DNA of 47,804 bases. Origin: Candidatus Thiopontia autotrophica (GTDB lineage: Bacteria; Pseudomonadota; Gammaproteobacteria; GCF-002020875). Positions 49 through 12,241 of the stretch are shown piece by piece. The stretch covers positions 1 to 47,804 of the forward strand of contig JACNFK010000038.1 of assembly GCA_014384675.1 (NCBI GenBank). The letters run 5' to 3'. The notes under the pieces were generated by a model. The model was not told where the DNA came from. It ran no database searches and saw only the letters and a program-made list of their open reading frames with translations. The stretch's first letter is position 1. Every line of letters begins with the position of its first letter. The position numbers and the translations under genes are program-made.

Positions 49-2628
49 CCCCCTCACAATCTCATATACATCCCTGGATAGCCCCTCTCTGTCGGCAATT
101 CTCTGTAGCTGAGCTCGCATCAGAGACTGCCTTCCATCGTCATATCGCCGCCACTGGTTGAATGCGCCAACCATGCGAGCCGCAACCTGAGAATTAAATT
201 TATCCAGCCTCAGAACCTGATCAGCCAGGAAACGGTACCCTCGCCCATCAGCATCGTGAAAATGGAGCTGATTTCCATGGGCAAAAACCCCGACCAGTGA
301 ACGCACTCTGTTGGGGTTAGTGATGTCGAAGTCAGGATGGTTTAGCAGAGCTTCAACCCGATTCATTGCATCTGGGAGTTGCGAGCCAGCCTGCAGCGCA
401 AACCACTTATCCACCACCAAGCGCTCATCTCTCCACTTATCGTAGAAGTTGTTAAGTGCTGATGTGCGTTGCGGCAGATCAACCTGCTCCAGTGCAGATA
501 GCGCCCCCATCTCATCACTCATGTTCTCTGCCTGCTCCAGCTGAGTAACTGCCATATCGACAACATCATCACTTCCGAGACGCATCAACATGCCGAGAAG
601 CTGGTTACGCAGCGTACGTCCGGCAATCATCTCCGGATCAAGTTTGTGATAGAGCTCAACCATCTCCTGCTGGTAACGTTCGGCAATGGCACGTATCGCA
701 AACTCACGAGCCTGGTGAATGGCTACCACATCAACCACCTCCATCTTCTCTGCCAGCCAGCGTTCACCAGGCAGCATCAGAGTCTCTGCAATAAATGCCG
801 GATCTTTCTCGCCATCTGCCAGCAGCTCTCCTATGGCATTGAGCCATGCCTCATCCATCTCAGGGGCAGATTCACCAACCCATTTCAATAGCAGTGATTC
901 TGCAATCTGCTGTCCTGCATCCCACCGATTGAACTGATCAGAGTCGTGTGCCATCAAGAAGAGTTGCTGCTCTTCCGTATGCGCTGTCTGTAACAGGATT
1001 GGTGCCGAGAATCCGCGCAGTATAGATGGCACTGCGTCAGCTGGAACCCCCTCAAAACGGAATGACTCACTTCTCTCCTGCAACTCAACCATACGGGTAG
1101 TTTCCGGCAACAGATCTTCCCCTGTTGTGGCAGAGAGAATACCAACTGCAACAGGAATGTGGTGCGGCTGCCACCCCTCTCTCTCTTCGTCACTTAGTGA
1201 CTCTGGAGGAAGTTGCTCCAGTGTCAGAGTCATGGTCTCCGACTCTGGATCATGGCTCCAGCTAGCCTGCAGTTGTGGTGTCCCTTTTTGTCTGTACCAG
1301 CTCATAAAATGGCTCAGATCACGTCCGGATGCCTCCTCCATACAGCGTACAAAATCCTCAACCGTAACGGCCTGCCCATCATGTCGCTTAAAATAGAGAT
1401 CCATCCCTTTGCGCCAGCTCTCCTCGCCCAACAGGGCGTGCTGCATACGTACAACCTCGGCCCCCTTCTCATAGACCGTAACGGTGTAGAAGTTTCTGAT
1501 CTCTATATAGTGGTCTGGGCGAACCGGATGCGACATCGGCCCACTATCCTCAACAAACTGGGCACTGCGTAGCAGCCTTACATCCTGAATCCTCTTTACT
1601 GCACGGGAGTTGTGGTCAGCCGTAAACTCCTGGTCACGAAATACCGTAAGCCCCTCCTTGAGGCTAAGCTGAAACCAGTCGCGACAGGTAATGCGGTTAC
1701 CGGTCCAGTTATGAAAATACTCATGACCAATCACAGCCTCAATATTCAGATAGTCCACGTCGGTCGCCGTCTCTGGCCTGGCCAACACAAATTTGGAGTT
1801 GAAGATATTGAGACTTTTATTCTCCATCGCCCCGGAGTTAAAGTCATCAACAGCAACTATATTGAACAGATCAAGATCATATTCACGGCCATAGACTTTT
1901 TCATCCCATGCCATGGAGCGCCTGAGAGAGACCATTGCATGGTCACACTTGTCAACGTTATGGGGCTCGGTAAATATGCGCAGGGTTACATCTCGCCCCG
2001 ATGCTGTCTTGAACTGGTCCTGGATCCCTTGCAGCTTTCCTGCAACCAGGGCAAACAGATATGCCGGCTTGGGAAATGGATCCTCCCAGCTGACCCAGTG
2101 ACGGCCATCAGGATAACCACTATGTCCTGTCTGGTTACCATTGGACAACATAACCGGACAGAGCTTTGGGTCGGCCGCAATGGTAACACTGAATTTTGAC
2201 ATCACATCAGGACGGTCGGGGAAAAAGATAATTTTTCTGAAACCCTCCGCCTCACACTGGGTACAGAAGATGGGGCCGGACCGGTATAACCCCTCCAGCG
2301 ACTTGTTCTTCTTCGGATAGAGTCGTGTCTCCATCTGCAGTACAAACTCATCGGGCACGTCACTTATGGTCAGGGTATCTCCATCTCTCTGGAATCTGTC
2401 ATCACCAAGTGACGCTCCGTCCAGTTGAAGCGAAATCAGCTCCTGACCACCACCACTGAGAACCAGAGGTGCTCCACTCTCGCCATCAGGAGAGGCCACA
2501 ATCTTGAGGCTCGCCTTTACCCGTGTCTCATCCTCCCCGAGATCAAAGAATAGCCGTACCTCGGGAACCAGATGGTTGGGTGGGGTGTAACTGCTTAGAT
2601 AAGTTGTTTCTGGAGTTGGTGATGTCAT
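31..2628 (-). CDS. pepN: Aminopeptidase N (M1 zinc metallopeptidase)
   Basis: Cytoplasmic zinc aminopeptidase that trims N-terminal residues from peptides during protein turnover. The 865-residue product is the usual length for the E. coli PepN type. The exopeptidase motif GAMEN lies at residues 266-270 and the zinc site HEYFH at 302-306, with the third ligand in LKEG near residue 325; the alpha-helical C-terminal half characteristic of PepN follows. The ATG start has AGGA a suitable distance upstream. The last codons and the TAG stop fall inside a short interspersed repeat (GGGGTCAGG...TTTTTAG), so the C-terminus GSGLRF may be repeat-derived. It stands alone, divergent from the glutaredoxin gene. 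Identification is secure from the motifs and overall length. Confidence 0.97.
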   Translation of the reverse strand: MTSPTPETTYLSSYTPPNHLVPEVRLFFDLGEDETRVKASLKIVASPDGESGAPLVLSGGGQELISLQLDGASLGDDRFQRDGDTLTISDVPDEFVLQMETRLYPKKNKSLEGLYRSGPIFCTQCEAEGFRKIIFFPDRPDVMSKFSVTIAADPKLCPVMLSNGNQTGHSGYPDGRHWVSWEDPFPKPAYLFALVAGKLQGIQDQFKTASGRDVTLRIFTEPHNVDKCDHAMVSLRRSMAWDEKVYGREYDLDLFNIVAVDDFNSGAMENKSLNIFNSKFVLARPETATDVDYLNIEAVIGHEYFHNWTGNRITCRDWFQLSLKEGLTVFRDQEFTADHNSRAVKRIQDVRLLRSAQFVEDSGPMSHPVRPDHYIEIRNFYTVTVYEKGAEVVRMQHALLGEESWRKGMDLYFKRHDGQAVTVEDFVRCMEEASGRDLSHFMSWYRQKGTPQLQASWSHDPESETMTLTLEQLPPESLSDEEREGWQPHHIPVAVGILSATTGEDLLPETTRMVELQERSESFRFEGVPADAVPSILRGFSAPILLQTAHTEEQQLFLMAHDSDQFNRWDAGQQIAESLLLKWVGESAPEMDEAWLNAIGELLADGEKDPAFIAETLMLPGERWLAEKMEVVDVVAIHQAREFAIRAIAERYQQEMVELYHKLDPEMIAGRTLRNQLLGMLMRLGSDDVVDMAVTQLEQAENMSDEMGALSALEQVDLPQRTSALNNFYDKWRDERLVVDKWFALQAGSQLPDAMNRVEALLNHPDFDITNPNRVRSLVGVFAHGNQLHFHDADGRGYRFLADQVLRLDKFNSQVAARMVGAFNQWRRYDDGRQSLMRAQLQRIADREGLSRDVYEIVRGSGLRF

Positions 2629-2702
2629 ACCGCTTTCCTGTTTACGAGTTCACAAAATCGGCATATCATCCCGCATTCACCGAAAAATGGGAACTCATAA
2701 AC

Positions 2703-2957
2703 ATGGCCAGAAAAATAAAAATCTACAGTACCGGCACCTGCCCACGCTGTGACAAATCCAAACAGCTACTCACAAAATGGGGGATATCCTACATTGAGGT
2801 CAGGGTCGATCAGTCACAGAAGGGGTTGAAAGAGATGCTGAAGCGGACCAACAATGCCCGTACTGTTCCACAGATTTTTCTTGGGGATGATCACATCGGT
2901 GGACTGGATGAGCTAACCGAGGCCCATATGGACGGCGAGCTGGATGGGATCAGTTAG
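2703..2957 (+). CDS. Glutaredoxin (GrxC-like)
   Basis: Small dithiol glutaredoxin of 84 residues, expected to reduce disulfides or glutathionylated proteins in the cytoplasm using glutathione. The active site is CPRC at residues 13-16, close to the classical CPYC; the cis-proline motif TVPQIF is near residue 54 and the glutathione-binding GGLDEL segment follows. The ATG at 2703 gives the usual family length; the open frame extends upstream into the pepN divergent region but without family sequence. Its stop overlaps the 3' end of the convergent lipoprotein gene by about 8 bases. CPRC instead of CPYC is a modest variation. Family assignment is firm; the exact paralogue name is not. Confidence 0.9.
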   Translation: MARKIKIYSTGTCPRCDKSKQLLTKWGISYIEVRVDQSQKGLKEMLKRTNNARTVPQIFLGDDHIGGLDELTEAHMDGELDGIS

Positions 2958-3606
2958 GTAGACCGTCGTTTATCTTCAGAGAGAAACGCTTCTCCCTCTT
3001 TTTCTTGCCTGAATCTGATGACCTGGAGCGGCATTTTTTGAGCTGACTGCGGTAGCTGTTACTGGTCTCCTCCACCCACTTGGCAACCTTCATCAGACGC
3101 GGATGGTTCTCGTACTCTCTACTCAGAAAACCTCGGTGCCCTTCATGGTATGCCAGATAGAGGTTATAGGCATCTTCCCTTGGAATCTTCAGGCTACGGT
3201 GGGTACGATTCAGATACCAGCCGACAAAATCCACGGCATCGGCAAAATCATCACGTTCCGCATCGTTGCTATCTGTCTTCTCCTGGTACTCTCTCCAAGT
3301 CATATCCAGCGCCTGGGCATAGCCATATGCACTGGATAATCTCTCACCAGGGATAAATCCAAGATAGTGTCGACGGGGTGCACGTACATCCCCATCAAAA
3401 CCTGACTCATGACGCACAACTGCCATAATCACCTCCTGAGGAATCCCCCACTTCTGCTCTGCCCTGACAACCTCCTTTTCCCAATCCGGGTTCATCTTAT
3501 AGATAGAACATATATTGTCCGGATCAAATCGCTGCGACTCACAGCCACTAATCAACAGCAACAGAAATGGCAGCAACATGGTCTTTAAGTGATTCATCAA
3601 CAACAT
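2950..3606 (-). CDS. Lytic-transglycosylase-like (SLT fold) lipoprotein
   Basis: Probable outer- or inner-membrane lipoprotein with a lysozyme-like fold, presumably cleaving or binding peptidoglycan. The N-terminus is a hydrophobic signal ending in the lipobox LISGC, with Cys22 as the predicted lipidated residue. Residues 50-80 contain EVIMAVVRHESGF, the SLT-type segment with the likely catalytic Glu, and AYGYAQALDMTW is typical of the transglycosylase core. The tail (about residues 185-218) is strongly basic, suggesting contact with envelope polyanions. AGAGG lies 5 bases before the ATG at 3606; a second ATG at 3597 is also possible. It is convergent with the glutaredoxin gene. The fold is clear; the substrate is inferred. 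Confidence 0.85.
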   Translation of the reverse strand: MLLMNHLKTMLLPFLLLLISGCESQRFDPDNICSIYKMNPDWEKEVVRAEQKWGIPQEVIMAVVRHESGFDGDVRAPRRHYLGFIPGERLSSAYGYAQALDMTWREYQEKTDSNDAERDDFADAVDFVGWYLNRTHRSLKIPREDAYNLYLAYHEGHRGFLSREYENHPRLMKVAKWVEETSNSYRSQLKKCRSRSSDSGKKKREKRFSLKINDGLPN

Positions 3607-3681
3607 TGTAACCTCTGCCAGTTTTTTGTATTACCACTTTTTTCAAGGTAAACTCAGCCAGACAAGCTGGAGGAGATAATA

Positions 3682-4236
3682 ATGAAAACAATCCACACAC
3701 TGTTCACAACACTGTTTTTTTACCTGATCATAAGCCTACCGTCTGTTGCTGATGGCCTGTGGGTCCACCACAGCGTCGAAGAGGAATTCGACACCATCAA
3801 GGAGTATATTGAAGAGGGGATAACCAATCAGGGGTTAGTGGTTGCCCACAGCTCTGATGTCGGGGGGATGCTGCAACGTACCGGAAAAGATCTGGTTACC
3901 AGAGTACAGGATATCGCCCACACCATGATCAGCAAGGCAAAAGGTACGGTTGGGGTGGCTGATAATAGAGAGCCAACAGTGGTGGCTGCAACTTTTGTCC
4001 GCTCCGAGGTGATCGAGTTCTGTAGCGCAAAACTCTCTCGCAAAATGACAGATGCGGATCCTGCCAATGTTATCTTTTGCCCCTACTCAATAGCCATCTA
4101 CACCACAACCAAAAACCCGGAACTGGTTCATATCTCATATCTTCAACTCTCAAAAATTGGATCTCTGAAATCTCGTGATATTCTCAAAGAGGTGGAGGCG
4201 ATGCTTGAACAGATTGTGAATGAGGCAACCGAGTAG
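3682..4236 (+). CDS. Exported DUF302-family protein
   Basis: Periplasmic or secreted protein of 184 residues with a signal peptide (hydrophobic residues 5-22, cleavage around SVADG). The body matches DUF302-type domains seen in sulfur-oxidising gammaproteobacteria: GITNQGLVVAHSSDVGGML near residues 46-65, then an EFCSAKLSRKM and DPANVIFCPYSIAIY block near residues 112-140. Two Cys in these blocks (EFCSA and FCPYS) might bind a ligand or form a disulfide, but no biochemical role is established. GGAGGAGATAATA before the ATG is a strong ribosome site. Its TAG stop overlaps the GTG start of the next gene (TAGTG), implying co-translation. Function unknown. Confidence 0.8.
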   Translation: MKTIHTLFTTLFFYLIISLPSVADGLWVHHSVEEEFDTIKEYIEEGITNQGLVVAHSSDVGGMLQRTGKDLVTRVQDIAHTMISKAKGTVGVADNREPTVVAATFVRSEVIEFCSAKLSRKMTDADPANVIFCPYSIAIYTTTKNPELVHISYLQLSKIGSLKSRDILKEVEAMLEQIVNEATE

Positions 4237-4994
4237 TGATAGCTGCTGTAGCAGCGCTTCTGTTATCTGCATCTGTTCTTGCTACACCGGTTGAAAATAT
4301 CCAGCCAGCACTGGATTCAACAGATAATTCCGGTAGCGCCCCGGATTTTGGCAGCATAAAGGATCGCTCGATCCGCAAGAGCGCTTTCATTAGCTATATG
4401 GCATCACAGGCACGCCCAATTATCCACAAGATTGGCAAGGAGCGTACGGTTCTGCTTAGTCTATATCTGCGCTACCGTTCTGGTGACTCACTAAACGATA
4501 AAGAGCAGAGCTGGGTGCTGGAGCTGGCAAAAGTCCAGGGATTGCACAAATTCAACTCGGATAATGAGGAGAGCTGGAGCGAACTTCTAAAGAGGACAGA
4601 TATAATTCCACTATCCCTGCTGATGGCACAGGGAGCCCTTGAATCTGCATGGGGAACATCCCGTTTTGCCAGAGAGGGAAACAACTATTTTGGTATCTGG
4701 TGTTTTACCCCCGGGTGCGGCATGGTCCCCAAACAACGCAATGAGGGGGCAACTCATGAGGTTGAAAGTTACGTCAGCATGAAAGCTGCAATAGAGAAAT
4801 ATATCTACATACTCAATACACGTCCCGCATTTGAGGAGCTACGCAACCTGAGGCACCAACAGCGGCTCAACCTGCTAACACCATCCGGAACCATACTTCT
4901 CAAGGGGTTGGGGCTTTATGCAAAAAATGGGGCGGAGTACATGGAGCTGGTCAAAAAAATCATCCGCCAAAACGGTCTTGGACAATACGATTAA
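4236..4994 (+). CDS. Bax-type N-acetylglucosaminidase (FlgJ/Bax glucosaminidase domain)
   Basis: Exported peptidoglycan hydrolase of 252 residues. A short hydrophobic signal (residues 1-16, ending LATP) precedes a linker and the glucosaminidase domain. The motif MAQGALESAWGTSRFAREG near residues 128-146 carries the likely catalytic Glu; NNYFGIWCF follows, as in E. coli Bax and the FlgJ C-terminal domain. The GTG start is inferred from its one-base overlap with the stop of the DUF302 gene and the position of the signal peptide. The cotranscription suggests that the DUF302 protein acts in the same envelope compartment. Family assignment is strong; the start and physiological role (remodelling or lysis) are inferred. 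Confidence 0.85.
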   Translation: MIAAVAALLLSASVLATPVENIQPALDSTDNSGSAPDFGSIKDRSIRKSAFISYMASQARPIIHKIGKERTVLLSLYLRYRSGDSLNDKEQSWVLELAKVQGLHKFNSDNEESWSELLKRTDIIPLSLLMAQGALESAWGTSRFAREGNNYFGIWCFTPGCGMVPKQRNEGATHEVESYVSMKAAIEKYIYILNTRPAFEELRNLRHQQRLNLLTPSGTILLKGLGLYAKNGAEYMELVKKIIRQNGLGQYD

Positions 4995-7835: not shown

Positions 7836-9137
7836 TTATTTTTCTCCTCGCCCCACCCCATAGTATTTAATACCGGCAGATCTCATCTTCTCTGGCGAGT
7901 AGAGATTTCTACCATCAAAAACCACCGGGGTTTTCATCTTCTCAATCAATAAGTTAAAGTCTGGTGACCAGAAACTCTTCCACTCCGTCACAATCATCAG
8001 GCCATCAGCACCATCAAGAACTGAATCTCGCCCCTCCCCATAACTGATCGCACTCTGTTCTCCAAAATATCGCTTTGCGCTCTCCATCGCCTCGGGGTCG
8101 TAAATTTGTACCGATGCCCCCTGCCCCACTAGCGTCTCCACCAACTCGACTCCAGGAGCATTCCTGATATCACAGCTGCCCGGTTTGTAGGAGATCCCCC
8201 AGAGCGCAAACCGCTTTCCTCTCAGATCCATCTCGAAGTGACTCCACGCCTTGCGGAACAGCACCTCCTTCTGCTGTTCATTTATCTCCAATACCGCATC
8301 CAGCAGCTGTCCGGCAGACCCTGCCTCTCGAATTGTGTTGGCGAGAGTGGCGACATCCTTGGCAAAGTTGGGGCCACCGAAACCGGTACCTGGATATAGA
8401 TAGTCATAACCGATACGCTGATCAGACCCCATCCCCTGACGCACCTCCTCAATATCCGCCCCCACATCTTCCGCCACATCCGCCATCTCGTTCATAAAGC
8501 TGATACGGGTCGCCAGCATTGCATTGGAGGCAAACTTGGTAAGCTCTGCAGAGCGTGGGGACATCGTCATCACCACATCACGATTCCGGTTATAGGGAGC
8601 ATAGAGGTCACGCATAATCTCTACCCCCTCAACGGAGTCACTCCCCAACAGAATCCGATCTGGACGACGGAAATTCTGGATCATCCGCCCCTCAGTCATA
8701 AAATCTGGCTCCACAATCAGATGACAATGGCTCGGCGCCCCGCGCTGATTCAACTCATCCTGGACGATCTCATAAAGCCTGTCCGAGGTGCCAATCGGGA
8801 AGGTGGTACGGTTCACCAGAAGAGTGTCGCTCTCTATCACCATACCGATACGTCCCGCAATGGTCTCAGCCAGCTCCAGCTGCTCCGGATCTAGCAACAA
8901 AAAGTGCAGGCCACCATACTCAGCACCCTCATTCAGTGACTGGGAGAGACGCAGGCGACCACTATCCAACTGCTGGCCAAGCAGCTTCTTCAGCCCCGGC
9001 TCACTGATTGAGCTCTCTTCTATCTTCTCTGCAAATGGAAAAGTCGATGAGACCAGCAACACCTCATTACCGATATCCGCCAGACAGGCAGCTGTCACCA
9101 GAGCAGATGGATTATTGCCGTATACTGTTATTTTCAT
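7836..9137 (-). CDS. UDP-glucose/GDP-mannose dehydrogenase homologue lacking the catalytic cysteine
   Basis: A 433-residue protein with the full three-domain layout and length of nucleotide-sugar 6-dehydrogenases, which oxidise UDP-glucose to UDP-glucuronate. The family lysine/asparagine segment ELTKFASNAMLATRISF (residues 198-214) is kept, as are YPGTGFGG and the C-terminal ALWGISYKPGSCDIRNAP. However, the active-site motif GGSCFPKD reads GGPNFAKD, so the nucleophilic Cys is Asn257. The N-terminal Rossmann motif is also degenerate: YGNNPSALVTAA instead of the usual GTGYVG pattern. The frame is intact, so it is either a pseudoenzyme or has altered chemistry. It follows galU and pgi on the same strand, consistent with sugar-nucleotide metabolism, separated from pgi by 75 bases. 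Confidence 0.85.
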   Translation of the reverse strand: MKITVYGNNPSALVTAACLADIGNEVLLVSSTFPFAEKIEESSISEPGLKKLLGQQLDSGRLRLSQSLNEGAEYGGLHFLLLDPEQLELAETIAGRIGMVIESDTLLVNRTTFPIGTSDRLYEIVQDELNQRGAPSHCHLIVEPDFMTEGRMIQNFRRPDRILLGSDSVEGVEIMRDLYAPYNRNRDVVMTMSPRSAELTKFASNAMLATRISFMNEMADVAEDVGADIEEVRQGMGSDQRIGYDYLYPGTGFGGPNFAKDVATLANTIREAGSAGQLLDAVLEINEQQKEVLFRKAWSHFEMDLRGKRFALWGISYKPGSCDIRNAPGVELVETLVGQGASVQIYDPEAMESAKRYFGEQSAISYGEGRDSVLDGADGLMIVTEWKSFWSPDFNLLIEKMKTPVVFDGRNLYSPEKMRSAGIKYYGVGRGEK

Positions 9138-9212: not shown

Positions 9213-10799
9213 TCATTGCACTATCTTCTTCAATAGTCCGGCCGTTGAGCTGTCGTAATTCTCTAATGGTGACTCGTGGTTGAGAAGGTTCCGATGAACC
9301 TGATCCGCAACCTTCTTGCCCAGCTCCACCCCAAACTGATCAAACGGGTTAATCTCCCAGATCACACTCTCCACGAACACCTTGTGCTCATACATGGCAA
9401 CCAACACCCCCATACTTTTAGGGGTCAGCGCATCCAGCAGAAAAGTGCTGCTTGGGCGATTACCCTCATGTCTAAGATATGGATCCTCACTCTCCTGTCC
9501 AACCATAAAGGCGCGGCTCTGCGCCAGACAGTTGGCAATAGTCAGTTGGTACTGCTCCAAATCTGCCCCCGCCGGATCTATTGGCAGAATAAAATCCATC
9601 GGAGCAAAGCGCGTCCCTTGGTGAAGAAGCTGATAGAAGGCGTGCTGCGCATTGGAGCCCACCCCTCCCCAGACAATGGGTCCGGTATCGTAATCGACCC
9701 TCTCGCCCTGCAGAGTCACCGACTTGCCGAGGCTCTCCATCTCCAACTGCTCGAGATAGGAGGAGAAGTGGTTCATGTGGGCCGCGTACGGCAGAACCAC
9801 ATGGCCCGGCATCCCCAGGAAATTACTGTTCCAGACCCCGATCAACCCCATCATCACCGGAATGTTTGTCTCAAATGGCTCAGACTCAAAATGGCGATCC
9901 ACCAACCGTGCCCCCTCCAGCAGCTCCTCAAAGGCACCATTCCCAAGATAGAGCGCGATCGGCAGCCCAATGGATGACCACATCGAATAACGCCCCCCCA
10001 CCCACTCCCAGAACCGGAAGATATTCTCCTCAGGCAGCCCCCACTCCAGGGCCTTGTCAACATCTGCTGTGGCTGCTACAAAATGGCGATGAACAACATT
10101 GGCGCCCCCCGACGCCAGGGCAAGCCAGGCCCGGGCCGCGGCCGCATTGGACATTGTGTCCGCGGTGGTAAAGGTCTTTGAGGAGACCACAAACAGCGTG
10201 GTCTCCGGATCCAGGCGGGGCAGAATATCAGCCGCATGGGCGCCATCAATACTGGAGATAAAGTGAATATCAACTGTCTCATCCGCCATAGAACGTAGCG
10301 CTCGGCAGACCATCTTCGGCCCAAGATCAGAGCCCCCAACCCCGATATTGACCACATCGGTAATCTTCTTGCCGGTAAAACCGCGCCAGCTGCCTCCACG
10401 AACCTGCCCCACGAAATTGCGCATCTGCCCTCGCACAGCATGGACATCATCGACCACATTATGACCATCTACCTCCACCGGCTCTTGCGGACGGCTGCGC
10501 AGTGCAGTATGGAGCGCCGCACGCCCCTCCGTGCTATTGAGCGGATCACCACGCAACAGCTGGCTGATCCGCTCGGGAAGTTCCTGCTGGTTGGCCAGGG
10601 CAATCAGCTTATTGATAGTCTCCGGCTGAACCCTCTGTTTGGAGTAGTCGAACAGCACCCCATCGAGCTGGATTGAAAAACGGTCAAAGCGGTCGGGATC
10701 CTCCACAAACAGATCCCGCAGGTGCTGAGTACCCATCTCCGACACATGGCCCTGTAGCGCCTGCCATGCACTGCTATCTGTTACCAGCGGATTAGCCAT
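9213..10799 (-). CDS. pgi: Glucose-6-phosphate isomerase
   Basis: Interconverts glucose-6-phosphate and fructose-6-phosphate in glycolysis and gluconeogenesis. The protein (528 residues from the ATG at 10799) has the phosphosugar-binding core NIGVGGSDLGPKMV, the signature SSKTFTTADTM, GGRYSMWSSIGLP and the C-terminal YEHKVFVESVIWEINPFDQ segment with the catalytic residues. ATG 10799 is chosen over an upstream GTG-type start because GGTGGG sits just before it and it gives the family N-terminus MANPL. It overlaps the end of galU by 8 bases, indicating translational coupling. Together they feed glucose-1-phosphate chemistry and polysaccharide precursors. Confidence 0.97.
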   Translation of the reverse strand: MANPLVTDSSAWQALQGHVSEMGTQHLRDLFVEDPDRFDRFSIQLDGVLFDYSKQRVQPETINKLIALANQQELPERISQLLRGDPLNSTEGRAALHTALRSRPQEPVEVDGHNVVDDVHAVRGQMRNFVGQVRGGSWRGFTGKKITDVVNIGVGGSDLGPKMVCRALRSMADETVDIHFISSIDGAHAADILPRLDPETTLFVVSSKTFTTADTMSNAAAARAWLALASGGANVVHRHFVAATADVDKALEWGLPEENIFRFWEWVGGRYSMWSSIGLPIALYLGNGAFEELLEGARLVDRHFESEPFETNIPVMMGLIGVWNSNFLGMPGHVVLPYAAHMNHFSSYLEQLEMESLGKSVTLQGERVDYDTGPIVWGGVGSNAQHAFYQLLHQGTRFAPMDFILPIDPAGADLEQYQLTIANCLAQSRAFMVGQESEDPYLRHEGNRPSSTFLLDALTPKSMGVLVAMYEHKVFVESVIWEINPFDQFGVELGKKVADQVHRNLLNHESPLENYDSSTAGLLKKIVQ

Positions 10800-11676
10800 T
10801 GTTCCCACCAGCATGTTTCTGAATCAACTGCCCTACCTCATCACCAATTTCATTATCTCTCAACGCGTACTCTATATTTGCCCGTACGTATCCAAATTTA
10901 TATCCACAGTCATAGCTTATACCATCAAAGGTATAGGCATAGACTGACTCCTCCACAATCAAGGCGGCAATTGCATCTGTTAGCTGAATTTCGCCCCCCG
11001 CACCACTCTCGGTCGTCTCCAGCAGATCCATCACCTTTGGGGTTAATAGATAACGCCCAACAACAGAGAGTTGCGATGGCGCCTCCGCCGTCGATGGCTT
11101 CTCCACCACCCCACTCATCCTCTGCAATTTGCCGCTCTCCCCCTCCTCAAGCGAAACAATGCCATATTTCTCTACCTCATCCAGCGGCACCGTCTCTACG
11201 CCAATGATGGCAGAACCCTTTTCACCAAACGCCTTCACCATCTGCGCCATACACCCCTGGCCACCGTTATGGATCAACACATCAGGCAGGATCACCCCAA
11301 ACGGCTCATCGCCCACTGCATCCCTGGCACAGAGCACAGCGTGCCCAAGCCCAAGCGGCTGGTGCTGGTAGACAACGGAAACAGTGACCCCTTTGGGAAG
11401 AATGGAACGCACCTTCTGCAGCAGCTCATCCTTCCCCTTATCCTCCAGAGCAGCCTCAAGCCTGGGGTTCTCCCTAAAGTGCTCTTCCAGGGCACTCTTT
11501 TCAGGGTGAGATACCAGAATAATCTCTTCGGCACCAGCCTCCACCGCCTCCTCGACAACATACTGAATCAGCGGCCTATCGACAACCGTAAGCATCTCCT
11601 TCGGAATCGCCTTGGTCGCAGGCAAAAAACGAGTCCCCAGACCTGCTACAGGAAAAACATACTTAGTGATTTTCAC
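10792..11676 (-). CDS. galU: UTP-glucose-1-phosphate uridylyltransferase
   Basis: Makes UDP-glucose from UTP and glucose-1-phosphate, the precursor for glycans and for UDP-glucuronate. The 294-residue protein has the nucleotidyltransferase signature AGLGTRFLPATKAIPKEML at residues 11-30, YVVEEAVEAGAEEIILV, GLGHAVLCA and PFGVILPDVL, as in the bacterial GalU family. It is the first gene of galU-pgi and overlaps pgi by 8 bases. The upstream 250 bases contain only tRNA-Pro fragments and a presumed promoter. Confidence 0.97.
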   Translation of the reverse strand: MKITKYVFPVAGLGTRFLPATKAIPKEMLTVVDRPLIQYVVEEAVEAGAEEIILVSHPEKSALEEHFRENPRLEAALEDKGKDELLQKVRSILPKGVTVSVVYQHQPLGLGHAVLCARDAVGDEPFGVILPDVLIHNGGQGCMAQMVKAFGEKGSAIIGVETVPLDEVEKYGIVSLEEGESGKLQRMSGVVEKPSTAEAPSQLSVVGRYLLTPKVMDLLETTESGAGGEIQLTDAIAALIVEESVYAYTFDGISYDCGYKFGYVRANIEYALRDNEIGDEVGQLIQKHAGGNNG

Positions 11677-11929
11677 ATCAAATTCTTATAGTTATCAATT
11701 AATAGGGATGACATTATCAATCAACCATACAAACCGCAACCATTAAGAAGAGATGATCCAGGCATGGGAGGAGGAGCAGGGTTTGATCCCCGAAGGGGAG
11801 GTAGCTCTGCTGTCAACCACCTAAAGTTGGTCGGGGCGAGAGGATTCGATCCCGCAAGGGAGGCGCCGAAGGCAGCCCACCTCCGCTCATCCGAAGTCGC
11901 AATTCTACAGGGTTTGAACCACCTAAAGT
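11677..11929. repeat. Intergenic stretch with duplicated tRNA-Pro 3' end
   Basis: A 35-base sequence (AACCACCTAAAGTTGGTCGG continuing to GATTCGA) occurs at 11815-11849 and again, exactly, at 11917-11951. The second copy includes the last 22 bases of tRNA-Pro. The first copy diverges after the T-loop (GATTCGATCCCGCAAGGGAGG). A third, weaker unit (GGGTTTGATCCCCGAAGGGG) is at 11780-11799. This looks like a relic of repeated insertion or unequal duplication at the tRNA 3' end. No gene is supported here. Confidence 0.7.
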
Positions 11930-12009
<80 letters not shown>

Positions 12010-12015
12010 AATAAA

Positions 12016-12089
12016 TGGAGGCTGGAACCGGAGTCGAACCGGTGTACACGGCTTTGCAGGCCGGTGCATAACCACTCTGCCATCCAGCC
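12016..12089 (-). tRNA. tRNA-Cys (anticodon GCA)
   Basis: Acceptor GGCTGGA pairs with TCCAGCC; the anticodon loop CCTGCAAAG gives GCA; GTTCGACTCC forms the T arm and CCA is encoded. tRNA-Gly then tRNA-Cys after pgsA matches the order found in E. coli (glyW-cysT). Confidence 0.97.
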
Positions 12090-12112
12090 AAGATGACTTT
12101 GGAATTTTGAAA

Positions 12113-12156
12113 AATTAAGGGGACACATAACTAGTATATGTCCCCTTAACTTTTCC
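12113..12156. repeat. REP-like palindrome between tRNA-Gly and tRNA-Cys
   Basis: AATTAAGGGGACACATA and TATGTCCCCTTAA face each other around a short loop. Related palindromes occur at 14773-14815 and 35597-35636. The consensus (AATTAAGGGGnCA...TCCCCTTA) resembles REP elements mobilised by RAYT/IS200-like transposases, none of which is in this window. It could also fold in the tRNA precursor and affect processing. Confidence 0.65.
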
Positions 12157-12165
12157 AATAAAATT

Positions 12166-12241
<76 letters not shown>

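Follow-up and report, generated by a model that had tools for sequence, protein, structure and literature searches.

Can a protein that keeps the length and the fold of a nucleotide sugar dehydrogenase still be one when its catalytic cysteine and its NAD-binding motif are gone, and if not, why is its gene retained? This question is raised by a gene in the window, the whole stretch of 47,804 nucleotides of Candidatus Thiopontia autotrophica that was analysed. A preliminary description of this DNA had noted a full-length frame positioned next to galU and pgi and had suggested 'a pseudoenzyme or new activity'. The features used below are as follows.

7836..9137, minus strand: Cys-less, NAD-site-less UDP-glucose dehydrogenase homologue, proposed UDP-sugar-binding pseudoenzyme, 433 aa
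8346..8403, minus strand: former catalytic loop YLYPGTGFGGPNFAKDVAT (aa 246-264; coordinates derived from residue numbers)
9093..9119, minus strand: degenerate Rossmann motif YGNNPSALV (aa 6/7-14/15; position calculated from the residue numbering, accurate to about one codon)
9213..10814, minus strand: pgi, glucose-6-phosphate isomerase, directly upstream of the pseudoenzyme gene (NCBIfam NF001211, 726.7 bits vs cut-off 492)
10792..11676, minus strand: galU, UTP-glucose-1-phosphate uridylyltransferase (NCBIfam TIGR01099, 333.3 bits vs cut-off 326.8)

The window protein and its losses

The frame is intact from end to end, with no internal stops, and both motifs had been read correctly: GGPNFAKD stands where canonical enzymes have GGSCFPKD, and YGNNPSALV where they have GxGxxG. 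The loop YLYPGTGFGGPNFAKDVAT retains the UDP-binding glycines, with Asn257 in place of the catalytic Cys. The alignment revealed a third loss: seven residues are deleted, and with them the NAD-contacting VGTPxxxDGSAD loop. The NAD-ribose Asp at the end of beta 2 (Ser here) and Tyr10 are missing as well. A sequencing error or frameshift as the cause of the losses was excluded, since homologues carry the same losses; the position equivalent to 257 is Asn in an 82%-identical genus-mate and His in a 67%-identical one.

Family membership is clear. All three Pfam domains of the UDP-glucose/GDP-mannose dehydrogenase family were recognised: NAD-binding PF03721, central PF00984 and UDP-binding PF03720 scored 64, 112 and 84.3 bits against cut-offs of 27, 25.4 and 30, and the NCBIfam model TIGR03026, 'nucleotide sugar dehydrogenase', scored 277.6 against 189.8. 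No NCBIfam equivalog model scored above its cut-off.

The nearest solved structures are those of BceC of Burkholderia cepacia (2Y0C-E), a UDP-glucose 6-dehydrogenase of the BceC/TuaD type (2Y0C/2Y0D/2Y0E) with about 40% identity to the window protein. The predicted fold was superimposed on 2y0c with Z of 38.4 over 398 aligned residues and an rmsd of 2.8 Å, and the Rossmann topology is preserved in the AlphaFold model, which was built for a single chain and is of low quality in the loop 245-257. For the same model Foldseek gave an rmsd of about 7 Å, compared to 2.8 Å from the second aligner; the larger value is due to the hinge and the central helix, where the monomer model has low confidence. 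The two proteins have the three domains and the UDP-glucose contact residues in common, while the window protein is without the catalytic Cys, Tyr10, the second Rossmann glycine, the NAD-ribose Asp and the VGTP loop.

A clade with an erased cofactor site

Eighteen residues, the catalytic Cys260 of GGxC among them, were reported as invariant across 229 nucleotide sugar dehydrogenases, with their roles (PMC4794789). Using the roles given in that study and in PMC3184952, we scored these residues, along with several further ones, in 68 clade rows against 50 canonical rows. The 68 rows represent 67 distinct proteins (L003 and L051 are the same record), and a more diverged homologue, L176, stands outside the 67. 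The two sets were divided by the Cys itself, so the counts of Cys260 (0/68 and 50/50) are as they are by construction, which holds for no other residue scored. The canonical rows retained all 17 scored invariants.

The losses in the clade are concentrated in the cofactor site. Gly9, the second Rossmann glycine, and the Thr83 loop (VGTP, deleted) are gone in 68/68 rows; Asp29 is Asp in 50/50 canonical rows, and no Asp was found among the residues counted in the clade. In active enzymes Asp29 binds the NAD adenosine ribose, and Thr83 contacts the nicotinamide ribose (PMC4794789 / PMC3184952). Tyr10, which serves thioester hydrolysis, is gone in most rows, and Gly12 is lost in 40 of the 68. Arg327, which binds the NAD pyrophosphate, is retained in only 4/68 rows and Lys263 (nicotinamide ribose) in 3/68; unlike most members, the window protein has kept both.

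On the other hand, Gly7, Pro140, Glu201, Lys204, Asn219, Arg244, Gly257, Gly258, Asn287 and Lys320 are invariant in 68/68 rows, and so is the Arg of DGRN. Arg244 crosses the dimer to reach the glucose and Lys320 is a UDP diphosphate contact (PMC4794789 / PMC3184952). All 68 rows also have Leu at index 359, which is typical of UDP-glucose enzymes and not of those acting on GDP-mannose or UDP-ManNAc (PMC4794789 / PMC3184952). Asp264 is present in 67 rows (L159 has lost it, as has L176), Glu145 in 64. Asn208 is lost in 20/68 rows, which suggests that the sugar pocket is not wholly fixed in the clade. These residues show a clear pattern across the clade, with the cofactor site erased and the sugar-nucleotide site frozen.

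Could the nucleophile have moved to another cysteine, as the preliminary description had considered? We found no new conserved Cys across the clade. Near the loop a Cys recurs at one position only, that of T251; canonical enzymes have it there just as often, and the window protein has Thr. The three cysteines of the window protein (18, 138 and 322) all lie off the loop, and an alternative catalytic Cys was therefore rejected. The old Cys position itself is occupied by S, N, H, K, A or G.

The distinct Cys-less homologues (n=67) came from three gammaproteobacterial groups. In the window's own order they were found in three of six genomes, the window's genome included, and not in the other three. 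The second group is the family f51, and the third is the family around the genome of Pseudomonas sp. MYb185, where 29 of 298 genomes have one. Among the 369-370 genomes drawn from the class, at the E-value limits used, no additional family with Cys-less homologues was detected. However, L176, from a fourth family, came up via the pgi search, which suggests that the true spread of the clade exceeds the count.

Several members deserve a separate mention. L176 (genome G251, 606-4397), with the gene order galU-pgi-pseudoenzyme, reads GGNNFPQT and is without Asp264 and Asn208. L119, L120, L121 and L174 (f51, genus code g169) are a shorter diverged form of about 415 aa with GGDNFTRD, GGTHFERD or GGAYLERD, and pgi still adjoins them where tested. 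A Cys-less relative on a very long branch (L118 in G373, from 1459 on) has an altered VIQTLQGVG segment, with pgi upstream and galU downstream in an order that differs from all others. Two f51 loci, L048 and L049, have sox-like genes nearby, as judged by eye from the protein sequences. A contig filed under Candidatus Neomarinimicrobiota (L005, JABHBL010000018.1) carries a gene with motifs identical to those of the G002/L004 gene, next to a transposase-like gene; this contig is probably mis-binned.

In a maximum-likelihood tree, rooted on distant family members and made with the diagnostic segments (the trait columns) excluded, all 31 of the 31 clade members tested grouped together with a support of 99/100 and in all 200 bootstrap trees. 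A larger quick tree also placed the Cys-less proteins in a single group. Branches within and below the clade are long, and the canonical sequences were best matches only, so that the sister lineage is not fixed by this sample. With these caveats the trees point to a single origin of the Cys-less proteins, and independent decay in each lineage is not favoured.

Frames are intact in all 67 proteins. For close pairs within the clade, dN/dS over the whole gene was about 0.01-0.11, with the lowest values in the central domain, the part of the protein that makes up the UDP-glucose pocket and the dimer. The clade proteins are under strong purifying selection. For pairs of comparable divergence, identities of the N-terminal and the C-terminal domains were 42% and 54% in the clade compared to 59% and 57% in canonical enzymes. 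Given these values, the gene is strongly constrained overall, and the former NAD domain is relatively released from constraint in comparison with canonical enzymes.

The preliminary description had proposed aligning homologues and measuring dN/dS. Both bear out its pseudoenzyme reading: the losses at the Asn257 site and in the degenerate N-terminus are conserved across a clade of at least 67 proteins that selection maintains. Its remark that the enzyme 'could at most do the first step' was too generous. Neither NAD-dependent step is expected, because the second Rossmann glycine, the NAD-ribose Asp, the Thr83 loop and, mostly, the pyrophosphate Arg are gone.

Linkage to pgi and galU, and other dehydrogenases in the same cells

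In the window the cluster galU-pgi-pseudoenzyme lies on one strand with galU as the first gene; galU and pgi share 23 bp. The pseudoenzyme gene of relatives overlaps pgi by 4 bp or abuts it. The position next to galU and pgi given in the preliminary description holds in relatives too. We observed pgi adjoining the pseudoenzyme gene on the same strand in 64/64 loci tested. Near canonical genes (within about 1.5 kb) pgi was present in 0/50 loci and galU in 1/50. The difference in the pgi linkage has a Fisher p of 1.5e-33, a value not corrected for relatedness. The order galU-pgi-pseudoenzyme is found in the window's group and in f51, while in the family of Pseudomonas sp. MYb185 it is galU-pseudoenzyme-pgi. 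Because the linkage has survived this rearrangement, it argues for a shared function, though it could reflect co-regulation only.

In genus-mates that lack the pseudoenzyme, galU stands alone, and a pgi that differs from the window's lies elsewhere. As to co-inheritance of one pgi type with the pseudoenzyme, the window pgi is 45-47% identical to theirs, but similar values were obtained with many unlinked pgi genes. Further along the window, at 11764-12096 on the plus strand, there is a 110-aa ORF with a repeated 13-letter protein string; the repeats lie in the upstream part. It runs antisense over a tRNA cluster (tRNA-Pro, tRNA-Cys and tRNA-Gly, 11930-12241, minus strand) and is probably spurious.

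A search of the genome for a canonical Ugd, also proposed in the preliminary description, found an intact one of the E. coli type (PRK15057; locus L002) on another contig, adjoining a UDP-glucuronate epimerase-like gene. This Ugd, of the same superfamily, is 26-29% identical to the pseudoenzyme, and its motifs are intact (GTGYVG, ATPTD, GGYCLPKD). Canonical family members are also encoded in G281 and G459. In four single-contig genomes (G397, G401, G403 and G430), however, the Cys-less protein is the sole PF00984 (UDPG_MGDP_dh) protein, and the PF00984 search found no recognisable Ugd. Since it stands alone in these four genomes, the pseudoenzyme functions independently of a canonical Ugd.

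Competing explanations and a possible function

Loss of the dehydrogenase function is well supported by the residues. The explanation that we consider reasonably probable is that the protein is a pseudoenzyme derived from a UDP-glucose 6-dehydrogenase, which likely binds UDP-glucose and signals to GalU and/or Pgi as a feedback sensor or scaffold. It is built on the observed residue losses and retentions, the single clade, purifying selection, the linkage to pgi and galU, the fold and the genomes without another family member. Binding of UDP-glucose and dimerisation are what the retained residues suggest; the partner proteins and the regulatory role we infer from gene linkage only.

The ancestral fold would have been kept, and with it the composite, dimeric UDP-hexose site of the enzyme, and the UGDH dimer would still form, with Arg244 and the central helix retained. 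NAD would not be bound in the usual way and the thiohemiacetal/thioester would not be formed, so no UDP-glucuronate would be made. UDP-glucose, the product of GalU from the same cluster, would occupy the old substrate site, and the signal would be passed to GalU and/or Pgi by protein contact. The protein would then link glucose-6-phosphate/fructose-6-phosphate with UDP-glucose, either as a feedback sensor or as a scaffold.

The main rival, and the part of the preliminary description that survives as an alternative we hold unlikely, is a new activity on UDP-sugars that needs no NAD, such as hydrolysis, isomerisation or transfer, and that uses Lys204, Asp264 and Glu145. The retention of these residues (68, 67 and 64 of the 68 rows) and the very low dN/dS in the central domain would fit such an enzyme. 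Yet Asp264 is lost in L159 and L176, Glu145 in four rows and Asn208 in 20, and the positions around the old nucleophile vary freely, unlike a new fixed active site. Some residual NAD-independent chemistry is possible, as Lys204 and Asp264, which are also catalytic, are kept in nearly all members; the diverged L176 is without Asp264 and Asn208. It is quite improbable that the protein regulates or structurally supports the canonical UDP-glucose dehydrogenase of the cell by forming mixed oligomers with it. The second Ugd of the window genome, the canonical members in G281 and G459 and the invariant dimer-crossing Arg244 are in line with that role, which as a general one is weakened by the four single-contig genomes; moreover, the window genome's Ugd is of a distant type and is encoded on another contig.

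We regard as very improbable a protein that still functions as an oxidoreductase, whether it uses a different cofactor, a nucleophile other than the Cys, or carries out the first oxidation only. In favour of this, the model preserves the Rossmann topology, and Gly7, the first glycine, is invariant. Against it, the second glycine, the ribose Asp and Thr83 are absent from all members and the pyrophosphate Arg from most, no new conserved Cys has appeared, and the N domain is under looser constraint than in canonical enzymes. Finally, the loss of the catalytic motifs and the absence of the gene from three of the six genomes of the order could be read as decay, a pseudogene in the making held only by its operon position. 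The dN/dS values refute this in practice, and the 67 intact frames also speak against it, as does the presence of one clade in three or more families, repeatedly linked to galU-pgi; decay is extremely improbable.

The proposed pseudoenzyme has a precedent in GalF of enteric bacteria, a catalytically weakened GalU paralogue kept by selection (PMC4643126); inactivated relatives are thus kept in the UDP-glucose pathway. Both are weakened paralogues of enzymes of UDP-glucose metabolism, and GalF is a precedent for the idea, although it derives from the nucleotidyltransferase GalU, not from a dehydrogenase, and is not homologous to the pseudoenzyme. OpgH (PMC3723540) and UgtP (PMC5889556) are UDP-glucose-responsive size regulators, and the UDP-glucose level is a bacterial signal. 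They likewise report the UDP-glucose supply to another process, but the analogy is functional only, as they are glucosyltransferases of unrelated fold and active enzymes. No description of a UGDH or other nucleotide sugar dehydrogenase pseudoenzyme was found in the literature searched, which covers few subscription papers and is weak evidence of novelty. We put forward tentatively, as a possibility, that the clade is a hitherto undescribed family of UDP-glucose sensors of ancient derivation that directly control GalU and Pgi in several gammaproteobacterial groups, setting the split between glycolysis/gluconeogenesis and UDP-glucose-derived polymers.

Within the nucleotide sugar dehydrogenases the clade is a branch of non-dehydrogenases, which current models misname: TIGR03026 scores the whole of it above the cut-off. 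Genome annotation and metabolic modelling would attribute to these bacteria a dehydrogenase activity that the clade protein very likely lacks; in the four single-contig genomes, where it is the sole family member, they would be wrong to assign UDP-glucuronate synthesis by this route. The clade also provides a clean natural experiment, in which the cofactor site has been erased, the substrate site is frozen and the gene neighbourhood does not change. UDP-glucose sensing in bacteria and the division of hexose phosphate between pathways become testable with three purified proteins.
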